Source: Rhodothermales bacterium (GTDB taxonomy: Bacteria > Bacteroidota > Rhodothermia > Rhodothermales > UBA10348). Taken from it: DNA of 60,861 nucleotides. Below the pieces are notes generated by a model that was given only the letters and a program-made list of their open reading frames with translations, was not told the origin of the DNA and ran no database searches. The stretch's first letter is position 1, and every line of letters starts with the position of its first letter. Positions 30,480 to 45,408 of the stretch are shown piece by piece. The translations under genes were made by a program, and so were the position numbers. The stretch is from positions 1-60,861 of the forward strand of contig JANJTM010000044.1 of assembly GCA_024711125.1 (NCBI GenBank), read 5' to 3'.

Positions 30480-30486
30480 ATGAACG
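30474..30486 (+). promoter_or_regulatory. Perfect inverted repeat burying a start codon
   Basis: CGTTCA at 30474-30479 and TGAACG at 30481-30486 are perfect complements around A30480, the first base of the ATG. No Shine-Dalgarno sequence is visible; upstream is A-rich. The start could be masked in the RNA, or the repeat could be an operator in DNA. Confidence 0.5.
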
Positions 30487-33400
30487 CCACACGACTGCTT
30501 CGAGATCTTTCGAAGTCGCTGTCTGCCTTCCTGTTGGTGGCGCTGCTGACCGCAGCGACGGCCTTCGGGCAGACTATCTACGTGGACGCCGCCACGGGTA
30601 ATGACCTGTGGGACGGATCGTCCATGTCCATCGGCCCGGCTCCAATCGGTCCGAAGGCGACTATCGGTGGTGCCCTTGCCGCTTCGGCAAACGGCGCGAC
30701 CATCGTCGTCAAGGCCGGGACCTACCCGGAAGTGGTCACGGTCACCCTGGATGTCACGCTCCAGGTGCAGACCTCCGGCATCAACACGAAGGCGCTCATC
30801 AACGGCCTCGTATTGAACAATGCCCAGGCCTCTCCGAACAATGACATCACGTTCTCGGGTTCGGGCACCTTCGAGGTGCAGGACCAGCTGGGCGTCAATA
30901 CCGAGGTGGTCATCACCGACGGTGTGATCGCGGCCGGGAACAGCGTGGTGAGCCTCGCGGCCGGAGCCGACCTGTCGAGAAGCGGCGTCGCCGCCACCGA
31001 CGGGTATCTCGCCTCCGGTGCATTCGGATTCGCCGGCAACCACGACGTCACCTACAACGGTACCGGCACCCAGACGGCCGGCGGTGAATACCCCGGCAAC
31101 CTCGGCACGGGTACGCTCACGCTCAACCACGCCGGAACCCTGACGATCGGTGCCACGACGACGCAGCAGTTCGATCACAACACCGGCAACGTCACGTTTA
31201 CCGGCGGCCTGGTCGAGACGTTCGGCGGAACGGGCATCACGCTCGCGTCGGCCGGCAGCGCTTCGTTCAACAGCGTCGTCGCTTCCTCGCTCGACATCTT
31301 CGACATCACGGGTACCGGCACGGTAACCGTGTCGGGCACCACGAATGCCGCGGGCCTCGTGCGAATCGGTGCCACCGCGGTGGGCGCCAACCCCATCACC
31401 TTCGCGGCGATGAACATCGGCGGTGACGGAACCAACGCGCTCCGCGGCCAGAACGGCAGCACGCGTCCGCTCACGGCCGGCGCGGTCACCGTCACCAACG
31501 GCGACCTGAGCAACAACTCGACGGCCACGTGGACGCTCCTGTCCGCGGACCTCAACGCGTTCGACCTGCACCAGGTCAACGTGGGCGGTACGATCGTGGT
31601 CACCGGCCAGGTAACGGTCGGCGACCTGCCGGGTGCGAACCCCGCTCCGATCGGCGGCGAAGTCAACCGCATCATCAACGCGGGTACGCTGACCGTCGGA
31701 CCGGTCGTCACCGAAATCGATGACACCAACGCGGCCGACGATCAGAACCACCACTACGTCATCCGGAACAACTCCGGTACGCTCACGGTCGGCGCCATCA
31801 CGCAGGGCACCCTCGCGAGCGACGACGCCACGCCGGCCTGGTTGCCGAACGCCGCCTACGTCGGCCTTCGCAACGCGCTCGGCGCGACGCTGATTCTCAA
31901 TGGCACCTCGACCATCTCGGGTGACATCAACAACCTCGAGAACTCGGGAGCGGGCGCCGACGGCATCCGCATCTCGAACGGCGTGACCATCACCCTGAAC
32001 GATGCGGCCGGCTATGGTAACATGACCGCCCTCGGCGACTGGGTCGGCGCGCAGGGCACCCTGGTGTTCACGTACGTCAATGGCGGCGCCGACGCGTTCG
32101 GCCTCGGCGGCACCCTGACCCAGGCCGGCGGTTCGGTCACGATGGGTCCGGCGGTCGTCGGAACCGGCGCGCTCCTCGGTAACGCCTTCACCGTCGGGAA
32201 CAACCTGACCTTCCAGGGAGGCTTCCAGACCTGGGGCACGGCCTTCACGGTCGGCGGTGTGGTCAACATCGCGGCGAACAACATTTCGATCGACGCCGGC
32301 GCCGCGCCGAACGACGGCACGCCGCACGGCAACTGGGGTGGCATCAATGTCACGGGTACGAACTGCGCCATCGGCACGTCGAACCTCGACAACGAGTCCG
32401 TCACCCTGACGACCGCGGGCTCCTATGCCCTCAACGATTGTGCGATCTTCGGCTTCCTGTCGGCGGCCGGTTCCACGCTTACCGGTGGCGGCGCCAGCGC
32501 CGCGCTGCTCGGTGTGACCGCCGCCAACTTCGTCTCGACCGGCAACTACGCCATCGGCAATACGCTGACGGCGGGTTCGGGCCTCGTCAACCTGACGGGC
32601 AACTGGACCATCAACGTCGGCGCGACGGTCAATGTCTTCCAGTTCGACAACGCCGGCGTCGCCGGTCCGGACTCGGACATCGCCGGAGCCCTCACGGTCA
32701 ACGGCACGCTGATCTTCAATGACGACGCGGCCGGTGCCAACGGGCAGGAGATCCGCTTCGGGAGCGTCGCCATCGGCGCTACGGCACCGGGCATCACGCT
32801 GGCTCACGCCAACGTGGGTCCGTTCGTGCAGTTCTCCGTCGAGTCGTCGTTCGTCGGCGGCCAGTTCACCGACGCTTCGGCGGCGGCGCTGGAGAACGTG
32901 TTCAAGGTCTTCATTCCTTCGGCTGGCTCGACGGTCTCCGTGAAGCCCGGCTTCACGGTCGCCAACTTCCAGACGGAGGGCTCGGGCCGCACCGTCACGT
33001 TCACCGAAAGCATCACGGTCACCAACGACGTGATGCTCGGCAACGACACGATCCAGCAGCTCGGAACGAACTCGATCGTGATGTCGACCGCCGGTGGGCA
33101 GTTCATCCTCGATGACGAGGCCCAGGTGATCAACGATATCGTCACCACGGGCCTGCCCCAGGGTGCGATCGTGTTCAACAACGCCGGTCAGATCCTGACC
33201 ACGACGGCGATGCCGACCTCCGCCCCGACGCTGACCAACATCGTGGTCAACACGGCGGGCGCCGGCCTGGCTATCAACAATGACATCTACTTCCAGGGTA
33301 CGTTCCAGCTGATCGACGGTGGCGCGACCATCGCGGCCGGCAAGTTCGTCGAGAGCCTCAATGACCAGGCTGCCGGCGGAACCGCGGGTCGGATCTACCG

Positions 33401-36400
33401 GAACACCACCAACGAAGGCTTCACGGTCACCGGCACGCTTCAGGGCGTGTGGGATCTCGTCTTCACCGGGACGGGCGTGTTCCCGCCGGGCAACGGCGAG
33501 TTCTTCGATCCGGCCAACCCGGCACAGGGCATCAATGATCTCACGGTCAGCCCCGACGCCGGTGCCACGATCAACCTTCCCGGTACGGCGATCTCCACGC
33601 TCGGCAACTTCCTCATGGACGGTGGCGCCGGCTCGACCGGTTCCTCCAACGCCGTGACGACGATCGCCGGCACGTCGACGTTCAACGACTTCTTCAACGT
33701 CAACGCCAACTTCACCTCGACCGGCAACGTCGCGGTGAACGAGGACGTGACGCTCGGCAACGGCGTGGTCTTCACGACTCCCGCCAAGCTCGACGTCGCG
33801 AACAACCAGACGATCGCCGCCACCGGCGGCAACTCGGCCACCGTGGCCCTGACCGGCAACGATATCGACCACGACGTCGACGGTATGGTCGACGACGTGG
33901 CCGGCACGGGCAACACCACGGTCCAGATCAGCGGCACCGGCGTGGTCATCGACCGCGACGCTGCCCAGTCGGTCTCCCCGACGGCTACCGAGTCCGAGCT
34001 CGATAACGTGACGCTGCTCGCCGGCGCCACCGCCACGATCTTGGAAATGGAGCGGATCAACGGCAACGTGCTTGTCAACGGCGGTGGCGCGAGCCTCACG
34101 CTGACGACTACGGCCGATGCCACTTCGGCTGCCACGGAAGGTCGGATCGCCGGAAACGTCAACGTGCTCGACGGCGGAACGCTGTCGGTTGCCGCAAACG
34201 GAACCGGCAACAACGTGGCCGGCACGATGACCGTTCAGTCGGGCGGCACGCTGACGCAGCGCTCCTCGCTGACGATCGGCGGCGCCGTGACCTACGGCGG
34301 TGTCGGCGCGACGGCGGCGGTCATCAACCAGGACGGCTTCAACCAGACCTGGCAGGCCGGCGCCACGCTGACCCTGTCCACGGGGGCCAATACCCCGTCG
34401 TTCCTCCCGGCTGAGGGCACGGCTGTCGTGACCGACAACGCCGGCGCTGCGGTTACGGGCAACGCGGACGGCACGGTCATCCCGAACTTCACGGCCAACG
34501 GCTCGACCATCGACGTCATCCTCGTCGTCGATCGCGCCTTCTCCGTGACGGCGGGTTCGAACGTGACGGCCGGTCATGAAGTCCGTCTCAACGGCAAGAA
34601 CACGGCCACCTATGCCGCGGCTGCGGACGGCTTCTTTGCCGCCAACGTCGCCGGCCCGGGCGCGGTCCGTACGCTCGGCACGATCCTCCAGGCTTCGGCC
34701 AACGTTCAGATCGACAACCTGATCGTGAACTCGGCCACGGAGACCCGGCTCGAGTCGAACAACGTGACGCAGCGCACCTTCACGTTCCTCACGCTCAACC
34801 ACCAGACCGGCTCGTTCGATCAGGGTGGCCAGAACGTGATCGTCAACGGTGAAGGCACCGCTGCGGTCGACTGGACGGTGGCGGCTGCGGCCGACCACAC
34901 CTACCAGTCGGATGGCACGACCGCTGACTTCACGGTGGGCGGAATCGGGACGGTCGTTCAGTCCACCTTCACCGGTGGCGCTGTCACGGTCAACCGTCTG
35001 TCCCTGGGTGTCGGGGCCGGCACTGGCTTCTACCACCCTGCCAATGGCGACGCCCTGGTCGTGGCTAACTGGTTCGATTTCGACGGTGATCCGGACTTCG
35101 CGAACAACGCGTCGTTCCCGGGCGCCGCGAACACCGGCTCGCTCGCGATCAACGACGGGGCCCAGATCCACATCTACCCGTCGGCGACCATCGACGTGAA
35201 CGCCTCCTTCCCGGGCGGCACGGCTGCGGTCGACTTCTACTTCGAGACGGCCGGTGGCGCTATCGCCGACGGTGTCGAATCGGTGGCTCGCGTGCTTCCG
35301 ACGACCTTCGACGATCTGTACGTCAACGGCGGCTCGAACGCCACGCTGCCCGACAACACGAACTACCAGGTCAACGACACCTTCTTTACGGGTGGCGGTA
35401 ACCTGGATGTTGACGGCGACGGCGGTAACGACCAGACCTACACCGTCGCCGACGGCGGTACGGTCAACTACAACTCGGCCGGCTTCTTCCTGAACGACGA
35501 CCGCGTCGCCCGCGGCGGCGCCGCTACGCTGAACTACAACCAGATCGGTGGTACGTACGGCGTCCTCGGCGAATACCCGGCGGCGTTCAACTCGACGCAG
35601 ACGGCCATCAACGTCAACGACGGTACGTTCAACCTCTTCGGTAACCCGGGCGCTTCCTCGATCGGCGCGCTCACGGTTGGCGATGGGGATGCCAACGCGG
35701 CCGTGTTCAACGAGCTGGGCGTGGGCTTTACGGCCACCTCGGCCACGGTGAACGGCGACGGCACCTACAACGGTGCCCTCACGGTCAACGGCCCGACGAC
35801 GATCTCCGGTGCCATGACCGGCGGTCCGCTGGATGCCAACGGCCCGCTCACCACGGGTGCCGGCGTTGCCGTCACGGTCAATACGATGGTCTCGGGCTCG
35901 CCGGTCGTGCTCGGTGGCAACTTCAACAACCTGACGTTCGACGGCGCGGCGGTCCAGACTGCCACGTTCCCGGCGAACTTCACGATCGGTGGTATCGGCG
36001 TCCCCGGCACCCTGACGATCAACAACCCGGCCGGCGTGGACGCCAACGGGTCGATCATCATGGGCTCCGCGACGCCGGCGGCCAACTTTGCCGGTTTCCC
36101 CGGCACGGGCAACCAGTCCGTCCTCAACCTGACGAGTGGCGTGCTTCGCATGGCCGCCGGCAGCACGATCACGGTCAACCACTTCGGTTCGGGCCAGCAG
36201 GGTTACACCCAGGGCACGGGCTGCGTCTTCGGCAACGTTCGCAAGTTCCTCTCGAACCCGGCGGGTATCGCGGCGAATTCGGCGAACTCCGACCGCATGC
36301 AGTATCCGCTCTGCTCGCAGACGGGCACGATGCGCGACTACGCCTTCACGATCGACAATCCGTCCATCGTGGGTGTGGCCAATGCTTCGGTCACTGTCCG

Positions 36401-38525
36401 TCACGACGTGGAAGGCCAGGCGGGCGCAGCCGCCATGGTCGGCACCAACGGTCTGCCCCAGCAGGTCAATGGCGTCACCATCGGCCGCTACCCGATCGAT
36501 CCGACCTTCTGGTGGACGGTCACCCCGTCGTGGACGATGTCGGCCAACCAGACCTACAACGCCGAGCTGTTCGCGTATGACTACCCGAACTTCTCGCTGT
36601 CCTGCGGTCTGACGGCGTGCGACATCAACGAGATCTACTCGATCGACCGTGAGAACGGTTCGAACAACAACCTGTGGTCGCCGTCCTCGACGTCGATCAA
36701 CAACTACCTCCTCGGCGCGGACGACGTCGTCGTCGTCGCTTCGAACGCGGTGGGTGATCTGAACGTGAACGGTTCCCGCTTCACGCTCGGCCTGAAGACC
36801 ATCTTCGGTGCCGCTGCCGTGCAGCCGACCTTCGCGACGACCACGGGCAATGGACACACGTTCGACCTGACGACCCTGTTCGTCGGTCAGTCCGGTGTGC
36901 TCACCTACACCTCGATCACGCCGGCGGATGCGTCGTGTGTGGTCGCCGGTGCGGGTACCCTTGCCGGTGACAACCTGACGATGACCGGCGGCGCGGCAGG
37001 TACCTGCGCGACCACGGTCACGGTCAACGCGACGGACGAGTTCGGCGCCACCGCGTCGGCTACGTTCAACGTGAACAACTACCCGGCCCCGGCCGGCTCG
37101 GCGAACATCACGCTGGTCAAGAACGTCGGCGACGCCTCGGTGTCGTACGACCTGACCACGCTGTTCACCGGCGGCGCCCCGGCCACGGCCTTCATCAACC
37201 CGACTCCGTCGGCGAACGTGACGGTCGGTCTCGTCGGCAACACCTTCACGATCAACTTCCCGGCGGCCACCGCCGGCCAGGAAGTCGTGACGGTCCAGAT
37301 GAATGACGGCGCATCAACTCCGTCCCCTGTCGCTACCCAGACGTTCCTCGTCACGGTGAATCCGGGTGTGGCCTACACGGCCGGCACCTTCACCAACGTG
37401 GTTCTTACGGAAGGCGCCACGAACTCGCAGGCCCTGGCCGGCAAGTTCACGGGCGGTACGATCGGCGCGGGCGGATACGCCTACGCCGCCAGCTCCGACG
37501 CGACGGGCGTCGCCACCAGCGCGATCACGGGCACCAACGTCGTTTCGACGGCGGTCGGTCCGTACGTGATCGTTGCCGGCGTGGTGACTGCTGACGCGGC
37601 TCCGGCGAACGTCACGGTTTCTGCGACGGACGACCTGGGCGCTTCGGCGCAGGGCATGTTCACGGTCACGGTCAATCCGAAGGCGGGCAACGTGTCGGGC
37701 TTCGGTCCGGACCCCGCGTCGGCCAACATGACCCTGGACTTCTTCCTCGGTCTGCAGGCGCTCACCGCGAAGCAGCAGATGGCTGCCGACTTCGACGGCG
37801 ACACGCAGACCATCCCGTACGATGCGGCCCAGATCTTTAATGCCTGGCTCACGGCCAAGCGGGAGCTGGTCCTGAACCCGATGGCGGCGATTGCCTATGG
37901 CGACGTCAATGTCGAGGGTCTGAATGCGGTCGTTCCGGTCCGGATCGACGGCGAGGCATCGGACGTGGTTTCGTTCTCGTACACGGCAGTGGTCGACCCG
38001 AACTTCGCCAAGGTGACCTCGGTCGTCTCGGCGGCCGAAGGCTGGACCATCCGCTCGGTCACGGCTGAAGACGGCACGATCACCATCGCGGGCTTTGGCC
38101 TCGACGAGATCCCGGCCGACGGAATCGTGGCCACGATCAATCTCACGATGCTTGCTGAAGGCTCCGAGTTCACGATGGCCGGCCAGGGTGCCGTCAACGC
38201 GAACGCCGCCTCGGCCATCGGTGACGTGATCGTCGGCGAGCTGCCGGAGAACTTCTCGCTGCTCGGCAACTACCCGAACCCCTTCAACCCGTCGACGACG
38301 ATCTCCTTCGATCTGCCGGCCACGGCTGAAGTCACGGTTCAGGTGTTCGACATGCTGGGCCGCCAGGTTCTGGTCCTCCCGGCTCAGACGATCCAGGGTG
38401 GCGCGAAGCGTTCGGTTCAGCTGAACGGTTCGACTCTCGCATCCGGATCGTACTTCTACCGGGTCATTGCCAAGATGGACAGCAAGACCGCCGTCGAGAA
38501 CGGCAGAATGCTCCTCGTGAAGTAG
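30480..38525 (+). CDS. Giant surface protein (2,681 aa): beta-helix, dockerin-like and cohesin-like modules, sorting domain
   Basis: The largest gene in the window. The signal peptide ends near residue 31 (AATAFGQ). The head (32-95) has TIYVDAATGNDLWDGSS and ATIVVKAGTYPE, a DUF1565-like start of right-handed beta-helix proteins. Residues to about 2110 are a Gly/Thr/Asn/Val-rich array of short strands, probably a long beta-helix. Three Ig-like segments follow (about 2113-2403). A degenerate dockerin-like segment (MAADFDGDTQTIPYDAAQIF, about 2404-2460) and a cohesin-like domain (about 2470-2584) come next. The sorting domain (NYPNPFNPSTTISFDLP, FDMLGRQVLVL, ASGSYFYRV, ending MLLVK) closes the protein. 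Probably a surface stalk or adhesin; no catalytic motif. Confidence 0.88.
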   Translation: MNATRLLRDLSKSLSAFLLVALLTAATAFGQTIYVDAATGNDLWDGSSMSIGPAPIGPKATIGGALAASANGATIVVKAGTYPEVVTVTLDVTLQVQTSGINTKALINGLVLNNAQASPNNDITFSGSGTFEVQDQLGVNTEVVITDGVIAAGNSVVSLAAGADLSRSGVAATDGYLASGAFGFAGNHDVTYNGTGTQTAGGEYPGNLGTGTLTLNHAGTLTIGATTTQQFDHNTGNVTFTGGLVETFGGTGITLASAGSASFNSVVASSLDIFDITGTGTVTVSGTTNAAGLVRIGATAVGANPITFAAMNIGGDGTNALRGQNGSTRPLTAGAVTVTNGDLSNNSTATWTLLSADLNAFDLHQVNVGGTIVVTGQVTVGDLPGANPAPIGGEVNRIINAGTLTVGPVVTEIDDTNAADDQNHHYVIRNNSGTLTVGAITQGTLASDDATPAWLPNAAYVGLRNALGATLILNGTSTISGDINNLENSGAGADGIRISNGVTITLNDAAGYGNMTALGDWVGAQGTLVFTYVNGGADAFGLGGTLTQAGGSVTMGPAVVGTGALLGNAFTVGNNLTFQGGFQTWGTAFTVGGVVNIAANNISIDAGAAPNDGTPHGNWGGINVTGTNCAIGTSNLDNESVTLTTAGSYALNDCAIFGFLSAAGSTLTGGGASAALLGVTAANFVSTGNYAIGNTLTAGSGLVNLTGNWTINVGATVNVFQFDNAGVAGPDSDIAGALTVNGTLIFNDDAAGANGQEIRFGSVAIGATAPGITLAHANVGPFVQFSVESSFVGGQFTDASAAALENVFKVFIPSAGSTVSVKPGFTVANFQTEGSGRTVTFTESITVTNDVMLGNDTIQQLGTNSIVMSTAGGQFILDDEAQVINDIVTTGLPQGAIVFNNAGQILTTTAMPTSAPTLTNIVVNTAGAGLAINNDIYFQGTFQLIDGGATIAAGKFVESLNDQAAGGTAGRIYRNTTNEGFTVTGTLQGVWDLVFTGTGVFPPGNGEFFDPANPAQGINDLTVSPDAGATINLPGTAISTLGNFLMDGGAGSTGSSNAVTTIAGTSTFNDFFNVNANFTSTGNVAVNEDVTLGNGVVFTTPAKLDVANNQTIAATGGNSATVALTGNDIDHDVDGMVDDVAGTGNTTVQISGTGVVIDRDAAQSVSPTATESELDNVTLLAGATATILEMERINGNVLVNGGGASLTLTTTADATSAATEGRIAGNVNVLDGGTLSVAANGTGNNVAGTMTVQSGGTLTQRSSLTIGGAVTYGGVGATAAVINQDGFNQTWQAGATLTLSTGANTPSFLPAEGTAVVTDNAGAAVTGNADGTVIPNFTANGSTIDVILVVDRAFSVTAGSNVTAGHEVRLNGKNTATYAAAADGFFAANVAGPGAVRTLGTILQASANVQIDNLIVNSATETRLESNNVTQRTFTFLTLNHQTGSFDQGGQNVIVNGEGTAAVDWTVAAAADHTYQSDGTTADFTVGGIGTVVQSTFTGGAVTVNRLSLGVGAGTGFYHPANGDALVVANWFDFDGDPDFANNASFPGAANTGSLAINDGAQIHIYPSATIDVNASFPGGTAAVDFYFETAGGAIADGVESVARVLPTTFDDLYVNGGSNATLPDNTNYQVNDTFFTGGGNLDVDGDGGNDQTYTVADGGTVNYNSAGFFLNDDRVARGGAATLNYNQIGGTYGVLGEYPAAFNSTQTAINVNDGTFNLFGNPGASSIGALTVGDGDANAAVFNELGVGFTATSATVNGDGTYNGALTVNGPTTISGAMTGGPLDANGPLTTGAGVAVTVNTMVSGSPVVLGGNFNNLTFDGAAVQTATFPANFTIGGIGVPGTLTINNPAGVDANGSIIMGSATPAANFAGFPGTGNQSVLNLTSGVLRMAAGSTITVNHFGSGQQGYTQGTGCVFGNVRKFLSNPAGIAANSANSDRMQYPLCSQTGTMRDYAFTIDNPSIVGVANASVTVRHDVEGQAGAAAMVGTNGLPQQVNGVTIGRYPIDPTFWWTVTPSWTMSANQTYNAELFAYDYPNFSLSCGLTACDINEIYSIDRENGSNNNLWSPSSTSINNYLLGADDVVVVASNAVGDLNVNGSRFTLGLKTIFGAAAVQPTFATTTGNGHTFDLTTLFVGQSGVLTYTSITPADASCVVAGAGTLAGDNLTMTGGAAGTCATTVTVNATDEFGATASATFNVNNYPAPAGSANITLVKNVGDASVSYDLTTLFTGGAPATAFINPTPSANVTVGLVGNTFTINFPAATAGQEVVTVQMNDGASTPSPVATQTFLVTVNPGVAYTAGTFTNVVLTEGATNSQALAGKFTGGTIGAGGYAYAASSDATGVATSAITGTNVVSTAVGPYVIVAGVVTADAAPANVTVSATDDLGASAQGMFTVTVNPKAGNVSGFGPDPASANMTLDFFLGLQALTAKQQMAADFDGDTQTIPYDAAQIFNAWLTAKRELVLNPMAAIAYGDVNVEGLNAVVPVRIDGEASDVVSFSYTAVVDPNFAKVTSVVSAAEGWTIRSVTAEDGTITIAGFGLDEIPADGIVATINLTMLAEGSEFTMAGQGAVNANAASAIGDVIVGELPENFSLLGNYPNPFNPSTTISFDLPATAEVTVQVFDMLGRQVLVLPAQTIQGGAKRSVQLNGSTLASGSYFYRVIAKMDSKTAVENGRMLLVK

Positions 38526-38534
38526 TGGAAACGG

Positions 38535-38563
38535 GGCGGGGCGCCCATCGAGGGCGCCCCGCC
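38535..38563 (+). terminator. GC-rich hairpin after the 2,681-aa protein gene
   Basis: A 12-bp stem (GGCGGGGCGCCC with GGGCGCCCCGCC) and 5-nt loop, 9 bp after the stop codon. No T-run follows, so termination may be partial and expression of the next gene may depend on readthrough. Confidence 0.6.
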
Positions 38564-38615
38564 TCCGCTACTCTCCCGACGTCCGGCAAGTCACCCAAGA
38601 AGAGCGAATAATCCA

Positions 38616-41099
38616 ATGCGAAAGGCATTCAACAGATTGCTTCAGGCCAGCGCGCTGCTCGTCATCGGCCTGTTGGTTGGAGCCAATGTCGCGGCCGCAC
38701 AGGTTTCCCTGTCGGTCAACGACATCTCCGGCCGACCGGGCGAGACGGCCACGGTGGCCGTGGAGCTGAGCGGCGTCGAGGGCGGTACGGCGATCCAGTC
38801 GTACAACTTCACCGTGGGCACGGCCAACGGAAACGTCGTTCTCACCGGATACAGCGATGCCGCCGGCACGCTGGACGGCGATGCCGACTTCGTGACGAAT
38901 TGGAACCCCGGCACGGGCACCATCGGTGCTTTTGCGCAGGGAACGAACATCACGACATCGGGAACGCTCGTTTACCTCACGTTCACGTTCCTGGCAACCG
39001 GCACGGACACGATCACGCTCAATGGATTCACCCTCAACGCCGGGAATCCGGCGATCGTGGGCGACTTCCAGTCTGCGGTGGTCATCGCCAACCGGTTCAT
39101 CGTCGCTTCCACGCACACGCAGCGTGTCGGCGATACGTTCACGATCGATATCACGGCCGAGGATGCGTTCATCGCCGGCGATAACGCGATCTCCTTCAAC
39201 TTCGTGCTGAACTACGACCCCACGGTCGTTTCCCTCGGCGCGGTGTCGACGGGCGCTCTGAACCCGGGTTGGACGATCAATTCGTCCGGCGCGGCCGGCA
39301 CGCTGAACGTCGGCGCGTTCTTTGACGGAAGTGCCCTCGTGGGCACGGGCACCATTGCCACGATCCAGGCCACGGCTCTGACGGTCGGTTATACTGACCT
39401 GATGCTCAGCGGCGTCACGATCAACGCAGGCGTTCCCATGTACGGCGACCAGGACGGCTCGGTCACCGTGGTGCCGAATTCGGCTCCTACGGCTGATTCC
39501 AAGCCTGCCACGGTAGTCGAAGACGGTTCCGTTGCGATCACGCTGTCTGGCAGCGATGCCGACGGCGACCCGCTCACGTTCTCGATCGTTACGCAGCCCT
39601 CGCACGGCTCGGTTTCCCTCGCCGGTGCGGTGGCCACGTATACCCCGAGTGCGAACTATCACGGTGCCGATTCCTTCACGTACCGCGCCAACGACGGGTA
39701 TGTGAACTCGGCCGCCGCGACGGTCAGCATCACGGTAACCCCGGTCAACGACGATCCGGTCTGGACGGCCCAGATGGGCGACATGACCGTGCTCGAAGAT
39801 GACGGCGTAATCACGTTTGCGTACGGCGCTACCGACGTCGACGGCGACGCTCTCACCTTTACGAAGGTGCAGGGCCCTGCCGGTGCCACGGTCAGCGCGG
39901 CGGGTGCGTTTTCGTGGAATCCGATGGGATATCCCGGCGTGTGGCCGGTCCAGGTGTCCGTTACCGACGGTACGGTCACGCTGACCTCTACCGTTGCCAC
40001 CATCACGGTTTTCCCCGTGGATGGTCTGGGCGGCGTGCTTGCCGGTGTGCACGAGATGCCGCCGGTCGAGTCGCCTGCTTCGGGCGTCTCGATGCTTCGC
40101 CTCGTTGCGGATCAGGATCTGCTGGAGGTGTATGTATCCGCGGTCGATCTGAGCGCTCCGTTTACGGCGGCGCATATCCACCTCGGCCCAGTTGGGGAGA
40201 ATGGTGGAGTCGTGGTTCCGCTGACCTCGACCACGGTGTCGGCTGACGGCCGCAACGTGACGATCAACCAGGCAGTGAACCTGGCGGCTGTTTCTTACCC
40301 GGCCGGTGTTACCAAGGCATCGTTCGTCGATGCGCTCCGCTCGGGCGGCGCGTACGTCAACGTCCATACCTCGGGCAACCCGGCCGGCGAGATCCGCGGT
40401 CAGATCCTGCTGGCGACCAACCGGGCTCCGGCTTCCACGGAAACCCGCGGTCCCGCGTCGGTCACGATCGCCGGAAACCCGGCTGACCGTCTGTTCTCGG
40501 TCTCCTGGTTGCCTGCAAACGATCCGGACGGCGATACGGTCAACTACATCTACCAGATGTCGCTGAACGCGTCGTTTACGGATATCGTGGCGGCAGAGCG
40601 GTTCGGAACGGGCAACGGCTACCGCCTGACGGTCGCCGAAGCCGCTGAGCTGTTCGATGCCGTCACGAATTCGGCTCCTGGCAACATCAACGTGGGCGGT
40701 TCGATCACGCTCTTCCACCGCGTAATTACCTCGGATGGCTCCCTCTGGACCGTCGGTCCGTCGTCTTCGGTCACGCTCACGCGTGGCACGGTGACCTCGA
40801 ACGAAGGCCTGGATCTGCCCACCGAGTTTGCGCTGAAGGGCAACTATCCGAACCCGTTCAATCCGACCACCACGATCCAGTTCGATCTGCCGCAGACCAG
40901 CGAGGTTTCGGTGACCGTGCTCGATCTCCTCGGTCGGGTCGTGATGGCCATCCCGGCCACCACGATGGATGCGGGCGCCTCCCGCAACGTCCAGCTGGAT
41001 GCTTCCAGCCTGACTTCCGGCATCTATCTCTACCGAGTGGTCGCGCGTGCTCAGGACGTGACGCACACCCAGGTAGGCACGATGACGCTCGTCAAGTAA
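38616..41099 (+). CDS. Modular surface protein with cohesin-like, cadherin-like and CHRD domains
   Basis: An 827-aa exported protein. The signal peptide ends near VAAAQ (29). Two cohesin-like modules follow (about 30-160 and 162-285; FNFVLNYDPTVVSLGAVSTG is the clearest strand pair), then a cadherin-like module (about 288-378: EDGSVAITLSGSDADGDPL, HGADSFTYRANDG) and an Ig-like module to about 467. A CHRD domain comes next (about 472-605: AHIHLGPVGENGGVV, VNVHTSGNPAGEIRGQI). A fibronectin-like part precedes the sorting domain (NYPNPFNPTTTIQFDLP to the terminal MTLVK). It is probably a surface scaffold partner of the upstream giant protein. Confidence 0.87.
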   Translation: MRKAFNRLLQASALLVIGLLVGANVAAAQVSLSVNDISGRPGETATVAVELSGVEGGTAIQSYNFTVGTANGNVVLTGYSDAAGTLDGDADFVTNWNPGTGTIGAFAQGTNITTSGTLVYLTFTFLATGTDTITLNGFTLNAGNPAIVGDFQSAVVIANRFIVASTHTQRVGDTFTIDITAEDAFIAGDNAISFNFVLNYDPTVVSLGAVSTGALNPGWTINSSGAAGTLNVGAFFDGSALVGTGTIATIQATALTVGYTDLMLSGVTINAGVPMYGDQDGSVTVVPNSAPTADSKPATVVEDGSVAITLSGSDADGDPLTFSIVTQPSHGSVSLAGAVATYTPSANYHGADSFTYRANDGYVNSAAATVSITVTPVNDDPVWTAQMGDMTVLEDDGVITFAYGATDVDGDALTFTKVQGPAGATVSAAGAFSWNPMGYPGVWPVQVSVTDGTVTLTSTVATITVFPVDGLGGVLAGVHEMPPVESPASGVSMLRLVADQDLLEVYVSAVDLSAPFTAAHIHLGPVGENGGVVVPLTSTTVSADGRNVTINQAVNLAAVSYPAGVTKASFVDALRSGGAYVNVHTSGNPAGEIRGQILLATNRAPASTETRGPASVTIAGNPADRLFSVSWLPANDPDGDTVNYIYQMSLNASFTDIVAAERFGTGNGYRLTVAEAAELFDAVTNSAPGNINVGGSITLFHRVITSDGSLWTVGPSSSVTLTRGTVTSNEGLDLPTEFALKGNYPNPFNPTTTIQFDLPQTSEVSVTVLDLLGRVVMAIPATTMDAGASRNVQLDASSLTSGIYLYRVVARAQDVTHTQVGTMTLVK

Positions 41100-41120
41100 G
41101 CGGGCCCCTGGTTCGTTCGG

Positions 41121-41161
41121 AAGCCCCGGCCGTCACACGACGGCCGGGGCTTCGCGTTTTT
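41121..41161 (+). terminator. Rho-independent terminator
   Basis: A perfect 14-bp stem (AAGCCCCGGCCGTC at 41121-41134, complement at 41139-41152), ACAC loop, and TTTTT at 41157-41161, 22 bp after the stop of the 827-aa gene. The clearest terminator in the window; it separates this gene from the next surface-protein gene. Confidence 0.9.
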
Positions 41162-41263
41162 CATGAACGCGCGTACCCGGCAGACGGAATTCCGCGGGGC
41201 GGGTGTGCAGGATCGGAACGCCGAATTGCCCGGATGGGTGAATCGATCGGTGCGATCACGCCT

Positions 41264-41272
41264 TACATTCCG
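41264..41272 (+). promoter_or_regulatory. Candidate -7 box for the 863-aa surface protein gene
   Basis: TACATTCCG lies 19 nt upstream of the ATG at 41292, downstream of a strong terminator. This supports independent transcription. Confidence 0.3.
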
Positions 41273-41291
41273 AAGGATCAACCGGAAAGCC

Positions 41292-43883
41292 ATGCGAGAC
41301 GGAAATCGGAAGTCGCCGTTTGGCAAAGCCACCGTCGTGGCTTGCGTACTTGTGCTGACAGGGGTCACGCTGTGGGCGCCCGAGGCGAGAGGACAGGTGC
41401 AGGTGAGCATGACCGACGTATTCGCAGCGGTCAACGATGAAGTCTGGGTCGACGTGGTGCTTGCGGGCGTCAACCCGGCCACGCCGATCACGTCCTTCCA
41501 GATGACGGTCAGGCCGTCGGATGCCTGGATCGAGATCGCGACGGTCAACATCCAGAACGCATTTCACCAGACGACCGGGACCCTCACGGCGACCGGATGG
41601 ACGGTCGGTTCGTTGTCCACTACGGGCAAGATCGGCGGATATACGGGGGGAGGTGGTGGAATCGTCGCGTCGGGGACCCTGGTCCGATTCAAACTGCGTT
41701 TCACCGGAGCCGGAAACGGAACGGTGTCTCTCGTCGACTTCCGATTGAACACCGGCGTTCCGGCCCATGCGCCGGCCGTGCCTCTGTTGGATGTTACGGT
41801 TACGGCCGCCGGCAACCGCGCGCCGGTTGCGGTCAATGACAACTTCGCTTCGACGGAAGGGGGCCTGCTTTCGGTGGACGCCGTTTCCGGCGTTCTTTCC
41901 AACGACACGGATGCGGACGGTCAGCCCTTGACCGCAAGCCTGCTTTCCGCGCCGTCAAATGGGTCCTTGATCCTGAACGTCGACGGCTCTTTCACGTACC
42001 AGCACGACGGCGGTGAAACGACCGGAGATTCCTTCACCTACCAGGTGAGTGACGGCAGCCTTTCCGATGACGGGCTGGTTTCGATCACGGTAACCCCGGT
42101 GAACGATCCGCCGACCGCGCTCGCCGTATCCACTTCCGCCCGCGCCTCGGTCCCCAAGGCGATCACGCTGGGGGCAAGCGATCCGGACGATACGGTGTTC
42201 TCGTTTGCCGTGGTTGAGGCTCCGTCGCACGGTAGTGTCTCAATCACGGGAGATACAGCCACGTATACGGCGACCGCCGGCTACGTCGGCCCGGATTCGT
42301 TCACGTATCGGGCCAATGACGGTGAGGCCGACTCGCCTGCGGCGACGGTGTCGATCAACGTCACGGCCAACACGGCACCTACCGGGGTGGCCGATACGTA
42401 CTCGGTCGAGGAGGGCGGAGCACTCATCGTGGCTGCGGGGACCGGAGTCCTCGCGAACGACTCCGATGCCGACGGCGATGCGCTGTCCGTCACGCTGAAG
42501 ACTACCGCACAGCATGGCACGCTGGCCCTTACCTCTGCCGGTGGATTCAACTACCTGCACGACGGGTCCGAGACGCTGACAGATGCGTTTACCTATACGC
42601 TGAGCGACGGGTCGGCATCGGTGGACGTCGTAGTAACCATCAACGTGGTTCCGATCAACGACGTACCCGTCGCCGTAGACGGGACCGCCTCCACGCAGCG
42701 GAATACTCCGGTCTCGATCCCTCTCCAAGCCTCGGACCCCGACAATCCGGTACTCACGTACTCCGTGCTGCTGCCGCCCACCTCCGGGGACGTCGTCATA
42801 GTCGGTTCCACCGCCACCTACACCCCGTATCCTTCCTTCTCAGGGACCGACGACTTCCTGTTCGTCGCCTCCGACGGGATGGCGACTTCGAACGCGGCCA
42901 GCGTAACGGTCACCGTGATGGGTGTCGCCCACGTACAGTGGGTTCAGAACATTTCCGATCCGCTCCTGGACCCGGCCGATATCTACGTCGATGGGGTCCT
43001 CGTCTGGAACGACGCCCGTTTCCGGAAGGCAACCGGATTTTCGGAGTTTGCCAGCGGGCGACGCCTGGTGGCCATCGCCCCCGGAAATTCGACCTCCGTC
43101 TCGCAGGCGGTGGATGCCACCGAGGTCGACATTGCAAACGACGGTACCTACACCGTGGTCGCTTCCGGCACGGTAGCCACCGACGTCCAGGTCTCGGTTC
43201 TCGACGGCGCCCGCACGACCGGGACGTCAGGGACCACCGTCGATGTGCGCGTCCTCAACGGTGCGTCCAACGTCGCCTCGCTGGATGTCCGCTGGATGTC
43301 CGACACCAACGACCACAGCTTCCTTTTCCCGGTGGCCACCGGACTTCCGTACGGCTCCTTCACCGGCTACGTAGGCATGGTACCGCGCGGGTACAACCTC
43401 GAGGCTCGTCCCGCCGGCGGAAGCGCGATCGACACCTACCGATTCGATTGGAGCGGCGGCGGGGGTACGGCCATGGTCCTGATGTCCTCGGGTCTTGCAG
43501 GGACCGCCGGCACGTACGGCTTCTCGCTGATGTCGGTCGACGCAGCCGGTGTCGTCACGCTTCCGACCGTCGTGACCTCGACGAGCGGAAGCGACCTCGT
43601 CCCGCGCACCTTCCAGCTTCGCGGCAACTTCCCAAACCCGTTCAATCCCACGACGATGGTACAGTTCGACCTTCCCGAGGCCGCGGAGGTATCGGTTCGG
43701 TTGACCGACCTGCTGGGACGGGAAGCGCTGACCACGCCCCCGGAATTGGTGGACGCGGGCATGAACCGGGGTATCCCGATAGACGCGCAGGCGCTTTCGT
43801 CCGGAATCTACATCTACCGCGTGACCGCGCGGGCCGGAAAGACGCTGTACACGGCCGCCGGGACGATGACCCTGTTGAAGTGA
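41292..43883 (+). CDS. Modular surface protein with cohesin-like, cadherin-like and DUF4397 domains
   Basis: An exported protein of 863 aa. The ATG at 41292 is chosen because it opens a proper signal peptide (KATVVACVLVLTGVTLWAPEA) that ends near RGQ; the longer in-frame reading starts inside the preceding terminator. A cohesin-like module (about 36-170) is followed by four cadherin-like/Big_9 modules (about 174-545; for example GVLANDSDADGDALSV and GPDSFTYRANDGE). A DUF4397-like domain comes next (about 547-650; VQWVQNISDPLLDPADIYVD). The C-terminal sorting domain has NFPNPFNPTTMVQFDLP, LTDLLGREAL, SSGIYIYRVTA and ends MTLLK. Same architecture class as the 827-aa protein upstream. Confidence 0.86.
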   Translation: MRDGNRKSPFGKATVVACVLVLTGVTLWAPEARGQVQVSMTDVFAAVNDEVWVDVVLAGVNPATPITSFQMTVRPSDAWIEIATVNIQNAFHQTTGTLTATGWTVGSLSTTGKIGGYTGGGGGIVASGTLVRFKLRFTGAGNGTVSLVDFRLNTGVPAHAPAVPLLDVTVTAAGNRAPVAVNDNFASTEGGLLSVDAVSGVLSNDTDADGQPLTASLLSAPSNGSLILNVDGSFTYQHDGGETTGDSFTYQVSDGSLSDDGLVSITVTPVNDPPTALAVSTSARASVPKAITLGASDPDDTVFSFAVVEAPSHGSVSITGDTATYTATAGYVGPDSFTYRANDGEADSPAATVSINVTANTAPTGVADTYSVEEGGALIVAAGTGVLANDSDADGDALSVTLKTTAQHGTLALTSAGGFNYLHDGSETLTDAFTYTLSDGSASVDVVVTINVVPINDVPVAVDGTASTQRNTPVSIPLQASDPDNPVLTYSVLLPPTSGDVVIVGSTATYTPYPSFSGTDDFLFVASDGMATSNAASVTVTVMGVAHVQWVQNISDPLLDPADIYVDGVLVWNDARFRKATGFSEFASGRRLVAIAPGNSTSVSQAVDATEVDIANDGTYTVVASGTVATDVQVSVLDGARTTGTSGTTVDVRVLNGASNVASLDVRWMSDTNDHSFLFPVATGLPYGSFTGYVGMVPRGYNLEARPAGGSAIDTYRFDWSGGGGTAMVLMSSGLAGTAGTYGFSLMSVDAAGVVTLPTVVTSTSGSDLVPRTFQLRGNFPNPFNPTTMVQFDLPEAAEVSVRLTDLLGREALTTPPELVDAGMNRGIPIDAQALSSGIYIYRVTARAGKTLYTAAGTMTLLK

Positions 43884-43983
43884 TCCGGCGCACGGATATG
43901 CGGAAGTGACCCGGCCGGGTCGGGACCTCTGCGGGAGTCCGTCGCGTATACGGCCTCCCCGCAACCCGCCGTACGGTCCCGAC

Positions 43984-45408
43984 ATGATCCGGCTTCGATT
44001 CCTGACAGCGGTCGCCACGCTTACGGTCCTCGCTCCATGCGCCTACGCGCAGCAGGCTCGACCGCTGCAGGTCGACTTGGACCAGGCCGTGTTTGCCTTC
44101 GACGCCGACCATTCACTGGTCGAAATGTACCTGGCGTTCGAGGCGGCCACGCTTACGTTCGAGGCGGTGGAGGGGGGGTTCCGGTCCAGCCTCCCGGTGG
44201 ACCTGCGGATCCAGCGCGCATCGTCGGCCGCTTTGGCGGGTTCGCCGACGGATGCGGTGTGGAGCGATTCGCTCAACCTCTCCTTCGTGATTCCCGATAC
44301 CACGGGGCTCGCGCCGGGGCAGCAGTTCGTGAACCAGCTGAGGGCGACCGTTCCGCCCGGCGAATACGAGGTCGTGGTCGAGGTACCGGGCGATCCGACG
44401 ACGGGACGCACCGGGGTCTCGCTGCGACGGGAGATCGTTGTACCGGACTATTCGGATTCGGCGGACGTCGAGATGAGTGACGTCACGCTGGCAAGCGAGA
44501 TCCGCCGGGCCGAGAACCGGGACGAAGCGTTCTACAAGAACGGACTCGTGGTGCGGCCGAACGCCAACCAGTTGTTCGGAACCGGCCTCTCCCGCATCTT
44601 CTTCTACTCGGAGGCCTACAACCTGGATCGCCTGGCACCGCTCGAGACCGAGTACACGGTCTTCGCCTACGTGGCCGAGGCGAATCTGCCGCAGCCGCTT
44701 GCAGACATGCAGCGACGCACTCCGCGTCCCCTGCGGTCCCCGGACGTGGTCGTGGGTTCGTTCGACCTGTCGGGTCTGCCGTCGGGCTCGTATTTCCTGC
44801 GCATCGCACTGCTGAACTCCAAGAACGAGGCACTGGTCGAGCGCTCCCGGAAATTCTACGTATACAACCCGGGAGTGGAGCGGGCACCGATCGCCGGGGT
44901 GGACGAGGACTTCGAGAACAGTCGCTACGCGAACATGCCGGAGGAAGAGGTCGAGAAGGCGCTCGAACACCTGGCGATCGTGGCGACCGAATCCGAGAAG
45001 CGGCGACTTCGGGGCATCACCGACCTGGACGAGCGTCGGAGATTCCTCATGGATTTCTGGTCCAAGCGCGACCCGAATCTCAATACTCCCGTCAACGAGT
45101 TCCAGGAGCAGTTCTACCAGCGCCTGCAGTATGCCAACGACCGCTATCGCACGACGTTTTCCGAAGGTTGGGAGACCGACCGAGGACGTGCGCTGATCAA
45201 GTACGGGACGCCGGTGGACATCGAACTCCACCTGTACGACCGGGACACGGTACCGTATGAGATCTGGTCGTACAACAATATCCCGGGCGAAGGCCAGGCC
45301 ATCTTCGTATTCGCCGATCGGGACGGCTATGGCATGTTCGAGCTCATCCACTCGTCCGTGTCTGGCGAGCGCAAGATGGGGAACTGGTTGGCCGAATTGC
45401 GACGCTGA
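43984..45408 (+). CDS. GWxTD domain-containing exported protein
   Basis: A 474-aa exported protein. The start at 43984 gives a clear signal peptide (IRLRFLTAVATLTVLAPCAYAQ). The N-terminal half is beta-rich. The C-terminal part has the GWxTD signature (SEGWETDRGRALIKYGTP) with the flanking FWSKRDPNLNTPVNEF and YEIWSYNNIPGEGQ that define the family. GWxTD proteins are common in Bacteroidota, Gemmatimonadota and relatives; their function is unknown. The gene begins 100 bp after the last surface-protein gene and ends 4 bp before asnS, so it probably heads an asnS-containing transcript. Confidence 0.85.
   Translation: MIRLRFLTAVATLTVLAPCAYAQQARPLQVDLDQAVFAFDADHSLVEMYLAFEAATLTFEAVEGGFRSSLPVDLRIQRASSAALAGSPTDAVWSDSLNLSFVIPDTTGLAPGQQFVNQLRATVPPGEYEVVVEVPGDPTTGRTGVSLRREIVVPDYSDSADVEMSDVTLASEIRRAENRDEAFYKNGLVVRPNANQLFGTGLSRIFFYSEAYNLDRLAPLETEYTVFAYVAEANLPQPLADMQRRTPRPLRSPDVVVGSFDLSGLPSGSYFLRIALLNSKNEALVERSRKFYVYNPGVERAPIAGVDEDFENSRYANMPEEEVEKALEHLAIVATESEKRRLRGITDLDERRRFLMDFWSKRDPNLNTPVNEFQEQFYQRLQYANDRYRTTFSEGWETDRGRALIKYGTPVDIELHLYDRDTVPYEIWSYNNIPGEGQAIFVFADRDGYGMFELIHSSVSGERKMGNWLAELRR

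Follow-up and report, generated by a model that had tools for sequence, protein, structure and literature searches.

A candidate non-cellulosomal cohesin–dockerin linkage between neighboring type IX-secreted surface proteins in Rhodothermales

Introduction

Cohesin–dockerin pairs are best known from cellulose degraders. In the portion of PMC6030884 consulted, they are counted among the strongest receptor–ligand bonds reported. Here we analyze a 60,861-nucleotide stretch of a Rhodothermales bacterium genome (assembly GCA_024711125.1, contig JANJTM010000044.1, positions 1 to 60,861; hereafter, the window), in which three consecutive genes, P1, P2 and P3, combine cohesin- and dockerin-like modules with the C-terminal sorting tails of the type IX secretion system (T9SS). 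We propose, with a probability of roughly 55%, that this cluster encodes a non-cellulosomal, T9SS-anchored cohesin–dockerin linkage between the products of neighboring genes.

Results and Discussion

Architecture of the gene cluster

The three genes lie on the same strand, with the following features (lengths in amino acids, aa; Ig, immunoglobulin):

30480..38525, + strand: P1, a 2681-aa predicted surface protein
37686..37859, + strand: dockerin-like segment of P1, identified through PF00404 matches in aligned relatives and a profile search of solved chains
37788..37823, + strand: second calcium-loop-like motif of the P1 dockerin, DFDGDTQTIPYD, with D at positions 1, 3, 5 and 12
~37869..38240, + strand: coh1, the predicted cohesin-fold domain of P1, immediately behind the dockerin (AlphaFold2 model, Foldseek, VIA-align)
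38271..38480, + strand: T9SS type A sorting domain of P1 (Por_Secre_tail E 3e-9; TIGR04183 E 2.3e-9)
38616..41099, + strand: P2, 827 aa, with two N-terminal cohesins, two Big_9/cadherin-like stretches, a CHRD domain and a T9SS tail
38700..39092, + strand: coh2a, first cohesin of P2 (PF00963 E 3.7e-7 in the genome search; 1e-6 for the excised part)
39093..39488, + strand: coh2b, second cohesin of P2 (PF00963; fold match to 2vo8, Z 10.9, and 1ohz_A, Z 10.0)
40035..40406, + strand: CHRD domain of P2 (PF07452 E 1.7e-25)
40845..41063, + strand: T9SS type A sorting domain of P2 (Por_Secre_tail E 5.4e-11)
41163..43883, + strand: P3, 906 aa; an inner ATG at 41292 may be the start
41394..41798, + strand: coh3, cohesin-like domain of P3 (hhalign to coh2a, 99.8% probability; PF00963 in aligned copies)
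42969..43292, + strand: DUF4397 domain of P3 (PF14344 E 8e-13)
43629..43844, + strand: T9SS type A sorting domain of P3 (TIGR04183 27.1 bits, cut-off 23; Pfam 25.2, cut-off 27, just missed)

P1 consists of a signal region, a long repeat region, an Ig-like region and, within its last 280 residues, the dockerin-like segment, a cohesin-fold sandwich domain and a T9SS type A tail; the repeats, which have no Pfam match in the window, resemble a beta-helix by eye, and the Ig-like region was likewise assigned by eye. P3 carries its cohesin-like domain at the N-terminus, followed by four Big_9/cadherin-like stretches, DUF4397 and a sorting tail. The window's genome encodes T9SS components (SprA at 1943 bits and PorU at 935 bits, both over cut-off), so that C-terminal sorting domains and a T9SS in the same genome, the two hallmarks of type A cargo, occur together. 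Given the T9SS tails on all three proteins, we presume that they are exported by this system and retained at the cell surface.

Cohesin family and fold evidence

Family models recognize the P2 cohesins directly, as PF00963 matches the whole protein in two stretches (E 1.7e-12) and the excised region at 6.1e-15, over the family cut-off. The window's coh3 falls under the Pfam cut-off (E 0.049), with PF00963 matching seven of the eight aligned P3 domains, the window's included, at E ≤ 1 (best 1.2e-10). No PF00963 match was obtained for coh1 of the window, and a single one of the nine aligned P1 dyads (dockerin plus sandwich domain) matches the model (E 3.1e-4). In hhalign comparisons the four cohesin-like domains are related to one another, coh1 most weakly (63–93%) and the other three mutually at 97–99.8%.

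The assignment of coh1 was approached through its predicted structure. The AlphaFold2 model of the P1 dyad, built from an alignment of three rows (the window, L004 and L011), gives coh1 a predicted local distance difference test score (pLDDT) of 72–91 per ten-residue block. Its best Foldseek row is 2jh2_C (E 1.1e-7, template modeling (TM) score by target 0.64) and the first nine rows are cohesins, among them 2o4e, whose title reads only ‘protein-protein interaction module’. VIA-align superposes coh1 on the same 2jh2_C with a Z of 13.9 and a root mean square deviation (rmsd) of 2.4 over 118 residues, and the top 27 of its rows are all cohesins or scaffoldin entries that contain cohesins, including a few that we take to be cohesins although their titles do not say so. 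For the two cohesins of P2 the model is weak (mean pLDDT 63) and retrieves no Foldseek row at E ≤ 0.001 (best 2vn5 at 1.5e-3); the first 38 of its VIA-align rows are cohesins or cohesin-bearing entries, mostly aligned on the second domain, and coh2b is best matched by 2vo8 (rmsd 3.5 over 124 residues). The models thus point to a cohesin beta-sandwich fold in both coh1 and coh2b. The sole sequence match in the PDB for the first 295 residues of P2, MspA (E 0.011), was set aside as overridden by the cohesin family and fold matches.

A dockerin-derived segment with one canonical calcium loop

PF00404 (Dockerin_1) matches seven of the nine aligned P1 dyads at E ≤ 10, with a best E-value of 2.3e-7. 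When whole genomes were searched at E ≤ 0.01, matches were obtained for the P1 dockerins of G209, G210, G212 and G220 and not for those of G211, G217, G222, G223 and the window. A profile of all nine members, searched against solved chains, returns 8x39 (E 1.1e-4), an entry deposited under the name ‘serine protease’, as well as the cellulosomal ScaB chain 4uyp_B (E 0.037). A sub-cut-off YbbR match to the window dyad (0.0013) occurs in none of the other eight members and was taken as chance.

Loop 2 of the window segment has Asp at all four ligand positions (1, 3, 5 and 12), whereas loop 1 has N, S, F and S at the same positions. Among 36 dockerins of the class, the window's included, loop 2 is permissible in 33 and loop 1 in 26; a permissible loop 1 is absent from all seven P1-family members of this set, the window among them, and we therefore regard its loss as a trait of the P1 family. 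Because loop 1 does not provide the second of the two calcium loops expected of a full dockerin, we refer to the segment as dockerin-derived and degenerate.

An earlier note on this DNA, drawn up from the letters alone, had described a degenerate dockerin-like segment and a cohesin-like domain ahead of the sorting domain in the 2,681-aa protein, together with N-terminal cohesin-like domains in the next two genes. The segment is borne out by the family matches to its aligned relatives and by a conservation close to that of the sorting tail (see below), and the domain behind it by fold comparison; P2 proves to hold two tandem cohesins, one more than the note had worded, and P3 one, below the Pfam cut-off. 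Structure prediction of the modules, which the note had put forward as a check, favored the cohesin fold for coh1 and coh2b and failed to yield a reliable dockerin, while the calcium-ligand pattern survives in loop 2 and is half lost in loop 1.

Conservation and synteny within the family

At E ≤ 0.001 the dyad is matched in 22 of 244 genomes of the class. In nine of these, the window's own included, the match spans the full dyad with a strong E-value, and all nine belong to the window's family (27 genomes); the remaining 13 matches are weak and mostly partial. P1 is followed by P2 in all eight genomes that make up these nine beside the window's own, and a cohesin-bearing P3 comes next in seven of the eight, in two cases with a small cohesin frame intervening. 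The exception is G210, whose contig runs out here and where a P3-like gene sits at the end of another contig, while in a tenth genome, G230, P2 lies at a contig edge with the P1 position beyond reach. Five of the P3-position genes in relatives score higher in BLAST against the window's P2 than against its P3.

Mean identities were calculated over six genomes, one per close group (G210, G211 and G223 being left out), and place the dockerin (0.655) close to the sorting tail (0.698) and above coh2a (0.491), coh2b (0.449), coh1 (0.395) and coh3 (0.394). In 150-aa blocks of P1 compared across five genomes, residues 151–1950 are only 0.25–0.36 identical and residues 1951–2550 reach 0.44–0.50. That a 60-residue segment is kept so constant inside a fast-changing protein makes it likely that the P1 dockerin segment is functional.

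Stand-alone cohesin frames of 158–184 aa, in which no sorting tail was seen, adjoin P3-like genes in four relatives (L120:10648-11199, L121:8087-8596, L125:9912-10451 and L122:11167-11640); none lies between P2 and P3 in the window.

Dockerin and cohesin genes are neighbors across the class

To place the cluster in its wider context, we surveyed the 164 genomes of the class with at least 90% completeness (matches at E ≤ 0.001; the counts of cohesins around dockerins rest on 150 of 187 cohesin matches). Dockerins occur in 57 genomes, at 111 places, and cohesins in 66. At no fewer than 32 of the 111 dockerin places a cohesin lies in a different frame, at most 4 kb downstream and on the same strand, a count that is a lower bound because of the 150 of 187 cohesin matches covered. 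These places span 25 genomes and, by hand count, 16 genera and 8 families. Among the matches listed, a cohesin stands upstream of the dockerin at 1 of 111 places and on the opposite strand at none. Random placing predicts about 0.20 downstream cohesins against the 32 observed, a chance figure that presumes 4-Mb genomes with random place and strand. The related genomes in the survey are not independent of one another.

The layout is also shared. Across 30 of the 32 loci (the other two being G214 and G220), the dockerin frames measure 588–2450 aa, with 26 of them at 1000 aa or more, and the dockerin stands 281–343 aa from the frame end. The next gene's frame starts within 120 bases at 28 loci, and at 23 the partner's first listed cohesin falls inside its first 100 residues. 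A sorting-tail motif was found by pattern in 26 of the 30 dockerin frames and 22 of the 30 cohesin frames, and the four dockerin frames missed by the pattern have tails of similar look by eye; the sandwich domain between dockerin and tail was judged by length and eye only. The window shares this geometry, its dockerin lying 279 aa before the end of P1 and the next cohesin about 840 bases on. The G042 pair, taken as an example, begins with a right-handed beta-helix protein that has a dockerin and a tail and continues with one that combines three cohesins, nine Big_1/invasin-like stretches and a tail; in G214, a dockerin gene at C107 sits beside a two-cohesin gene.

The cassette is rare among 80 loci that were gathered for the similarity of their tails. 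A strict two-loop pattern finds none in their 118 tail-bearing frames and misses the known dockerins of L004, L011 and L071. The dockerin profile returns five frames at E < 1, namely L011, L004 and L071, the dockerins of whose own genomes are included in the profile, L012 (0.0089) and L074 (0.097).

Further cohesin and dockerin proteins in the window's genome and order

Outside the cluster, the window's genome has additional cohesin or dockerin matches at C54, C48 and, weakly, C56. The C54 protein (G000, L001:3214-8028) carries three von Willebrand factor A (vWA) stretches followed by a cohesin, a dockerin, a second cohesin and a T9SS tail; its cohesins come from the genome search, in which one of the two is over the cut-off, and are not returned by the whole-protein scan. 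C48 carries a gene whose cohesin is called by Pfam and whose dockerin-like segment stays under the cut-off; after it comes a Big_9/CHRD/tail gene whose N-terminus is cohesin-like by eye and uncalled by Pfam. Such proteins raise the alternative that the partner of the P1 dockerin is a cohesin from another locus of the genome, leaving P2 and P3 to take other dockerin proteins such as those at C54 and C48. We consider this highly improbable, as adjacency and synteny favor local partners and the P1 dyad was detected only once in the genome.

In P1 no enzyme family was detected at E ≤ 1, nor, at E ≤ 0.01, in the proteins of C54, C48 and C56, a result that covers these proteins and not a genome-wide search for polysaccharide-degrading enzymes; the only exceptions are side matches to CobT_C and Toprim_3 inside the C54 vWA region. 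Judged by these family scans, the proteins examined do not show the defining trait of a cellulosome, namely polysaccharide-degrading enzymes that carry dockerins.

Two genomes of the same order present a different composition. G160 encodes a six-cohesin protein (L164:2507-6109, −) and G161 a three-cohesin protein (L171:1912-4593, −), both with DUF4397 and a T9SS tail and thus reminiscent of P3 with more cohesins, and they hold 11 and 10 dockerin places, respectively. Ten of these 21 dockerin frames were inspected: eight have the dockerin in their last 60–75 residues and no sorting tail, and two have a sorting tail further on. PF00404 matches all eight tail-less frames, one of which combines DUF5060, a collagen-binding-type domain and a sub-threshold apiosidase match, while two have beta-helices and one carries PA14. 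The set looks like a T9SS-anchored cellulosome-like complex. Because multi-cohesin proteins occur here beside many dockerin-ended proteins, the cohesins and dockerins of the order likely pair with one another.

A model for docking at the cell surface

The proposed linkage draws on the modules themselves, their order, the sorting tails, the T9SS of the genome, synteny, dockerin conservation and the class-wide placing of dockerin and cohesin genes. P1, P2 and P3 would leave the cell via the T9SS, with their C-termini holding them at the surface. P1, giant and probably beta-helical, would present a C-terminal cassette of dockerin, cohesin-fold domain and sorting tail, and P2, perhaps also P3, would show its cohesins at a free N-terminus atop an Ig/cadherin-like stalk. 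The P1 dockerin could then dock into a cohesin of P2 (or P3) in a calcium-stabilized manner, clipping neighboring surface proteins into a mesh in which the two P2 cohesins could bridge two P1 molecules. The earlier note had raised a non-cellulosomal, surface-anchored assembly of the three proteins as an attractive possibility; it is the best-supported reading in view of the P1 and P2 cohesins recognized by fold or family, the gene order and the class-wide neighborhood, and is tempered by the degenerate state of the dockerin.

Several observations weigh against this linkage, first among them the state of the window's own dockerin. Alone, the segment has no Dockerin_1 match at E ≤ 10; loop 1 is without a permissible ligand at positions 5 and 12, two of the four; and in the dyad model the dockerin (residues 1–61, three-row alignment) has a pLDDT below 50, so that its predicted helices are not trustworthy. 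Furthermore, the segment is 0.53–0.58 identical to five relatives that average 0.71 mutually, while the sorting tail of the window protein diverges no further than those of the relatives; the dockerin thus appears eroded further than in the family as a whole, a divergence that resembles relaxation in its lineage. In the window species it may bind via its second half alone, weakly, or not at all. As for coh1, even its best Foldseek row has only a moderate TM-score, and adhesin and carbohydrate-binding module chains are among the 22 rows that Foldseek gives at E ≤ 0.001, with integrins likewise below the cohesins. At 51 of the 111 dockerin places of the class, the 150 of 187 cohesin matches listed include none in the neighborhood or in the same frame, and adjacency as such could stem from co-regulation without contact.

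Correlated divergence does not help to decide. In a mirror-tree-style distance correlation over 36 pairs (29 of the 30 neighboring pairs and 7 of the 9 P1/P2 pairs), dockerin and partner cohesin correlate with r = 0.713, with a partial correlation of 0.478 given the tail and the sandwich domain that 0 of 2000 permutations reach; G197, a partial dockerin match and near-duplicate of G196, was left out. The sandwich domain gives a nearly equal partial correlation of 0.468, and since the dockerin is not singled out, the analysis lends no support to the linkage.

The chief rival is that the P1 dockerin docks with coh1, either in the same chain or between chains, and that the P2 and P3 cohesins serve otherwise; dockerin and sandwich domain would then form a self-contained brace or a head-to-tail polymerizing unit before the sorting tail. 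The two modules adjoin in all nine aligned P1 proteins, a same-frame cohesin accompanies at least 34 of the 111 dockerin places, and the C54 protein, with those of C48 and C56 by eye, follows a cohesin–dockerin–cohesin–tail order. However, the whole-protein Pfam scan calls a cohesin in C48 only and a dockerin in C54 only (just below cut-off), and a same-frame cohesin in the place of coh1, at +300 to +570 bases, accompanies just 10 of the 111 dockerin places among the matches listed. Moreover, coh1 is markedly less conserved than the dockerin, and the linker from the last predicted dockerin helix to coh1 measures about 10 residues in the window, in the untrustworthy part of the model, which would leave little room for intra-chain docking. 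On balance, we find docking with coh1 unlikely.

A more sceptical reading treats the modules as structural leftovers, the cohesins serving as Ig-like stalks and the dockerin as a calcium-stabilized spacer, with no docking at all. The degeneracy of the window dockerin fits such a view, as does the appearance, after the cohesins in the coh1 VIA-align list, of adhesin stalk domains that are similar to the cohesin sandwich; the vertebrate TMEM132 proteins, in the part of PMC6030884 consulted, likewise have cohesin domains without a detectable dockerin partner. This reading is rendered improbable by the near tail-like conservation of the dockerin in the family and the canonical loop 2 of 33 of the 36 class dockerins compared, by a downstream-cohesin arrangement far over chance, and by the multi-cohesin proteins that accompany many dockerin-ended proteins in the same order.

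Extending the preferred docking of P1 with its downstream neighbors beyond the family is more tentative. The class may share a calcium-clipped coat, in which giant T9SS beta-helix proteins with a C-terminal dockerin cassette are locked or daisy-chained by downstream-encoded, cohesin-bearing Ig-stalk proteins, an enzyme-free, cellulosome-type lattice used as architecture; we regard this as a real possibility, held somewhat short of an even bet. If correct, a class-wide, non-enzymatic linkage of T9SS surface proteins would explain many orphan cohesins and dockerins and represent a new way of building a Gram-negative surface layer. The class also offers some thirty naturally paired gene couples for specificity tests.

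Relation to known cohesin–dockerin systems

The cellulosome pairs of Clostridium thermocellum (1ohz) resemble the present system in the cohesin fold, in the duplicated calcium-loop dockerin of most class members compared and in the repetition of cohesins within a protein. In contrast, no enzyme domain is seen on the dockerin proteins found in the window's genome, the proteins bear T9SS tails, and the dockerin stands ahead of a sandwich domain and tail. In the X-module–dockerin dyads of type II cellulosomal dockerins, too, a sandwich domain abuts the dockerin. Two entries that we take to be such type II complexes, 4u3s and 5g5d, are among the VIA-align rows of the P2 model. In P1, unlike in those dyads, the sandwich domain follows the dockerin and has the predicted cohesin fold. 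Noncellulosomal cohesins and dockerins are themselves reportedly known from a survey by Peer et al. in 2009, and the likeness lies in modules found outside cellulose-degrading bacteria; what differs here is a gene pair, a dockerin-bearing surface protein followed by a cohesin protein, that recurs across a class.

According to the accessible part of PMC8542988, Candidatus Stygibacter (Cloacimonadota) has a T9SS-anchored cellulosome-like complex with a surface-attached scaffoldin, alike in its scaffoldin-like cohesin protein with a C-terminal surface-attachment domain; there the dockerins are described on enzymes (GH18, GH57, peptidases), whereas here the dockerin is on a giant protein without a recognized enzyme domain. 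The sections of PMC9012536 on anaerobic methanotrophic (ANME) archaea describe cohesin/dockerin proteins that are not linked to cellulose, with a dockerin and several cohesins and a proposed surface attachment; these involve S-layer domains and dockerins on ATP-binding cassette (ABC) transporter binding proteins in place of the T9SS tails found here. PMC8547425 tabulates a Rhodothermales metagenome-assembled genome and, for the seagrass metagenome as a whole, reports divergent dockerins and cohesins that it interprets as cellulosomal; no link between that genome and those modules is drawn in the text available. An excerpt of PMC3534657 describes Melioribacter cellulases without dockerin or scaffoldin domains. 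No description of the dockerin-then-cohesin gene pair in Rhodothermia was found in the open-licence literature searched. Noncellulosomal cohesins and dockerins being already known, what is new, as far as searched, is the dockerin–cohesin surface-protein gene pair across the class.

Neighboring genes and additional observations

Two further genes flank the cluster:

43906..45408, + strand: GWxTD-domain protein adjoining the cluster (TIGR04514 E 3.4e-28)
22782..30047, − strand: P0, a 2421-aa T9SS protein divergent from P1 (DUF4397 match just under the Pfam cut-off)

TIGR04183 scores above its cut-off of 23 bits in P0 as it does in P1, P2 and P3, and the family-model scan of the window proteins gave no cohesin or dockerin match in P0. 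A plasmid search returned no match. The flanks are conserved as well, with the GWxTD gene downstream in six of the eight relatives and a divergent P0-like gene upstream in seven of the eight; contig ends explain the rest.

Two further frames deserve mention. G222 encodes a second giant T9SS protein of 2310 aa (L133:5991-12920, −), in which a dockerin-like segment (assigned by eye) and a cohesin-like domain precede the tail, and in G226 a 195-aa frame at a contig end (L131:7167-7751, −) contains two dockerin matches and little else.

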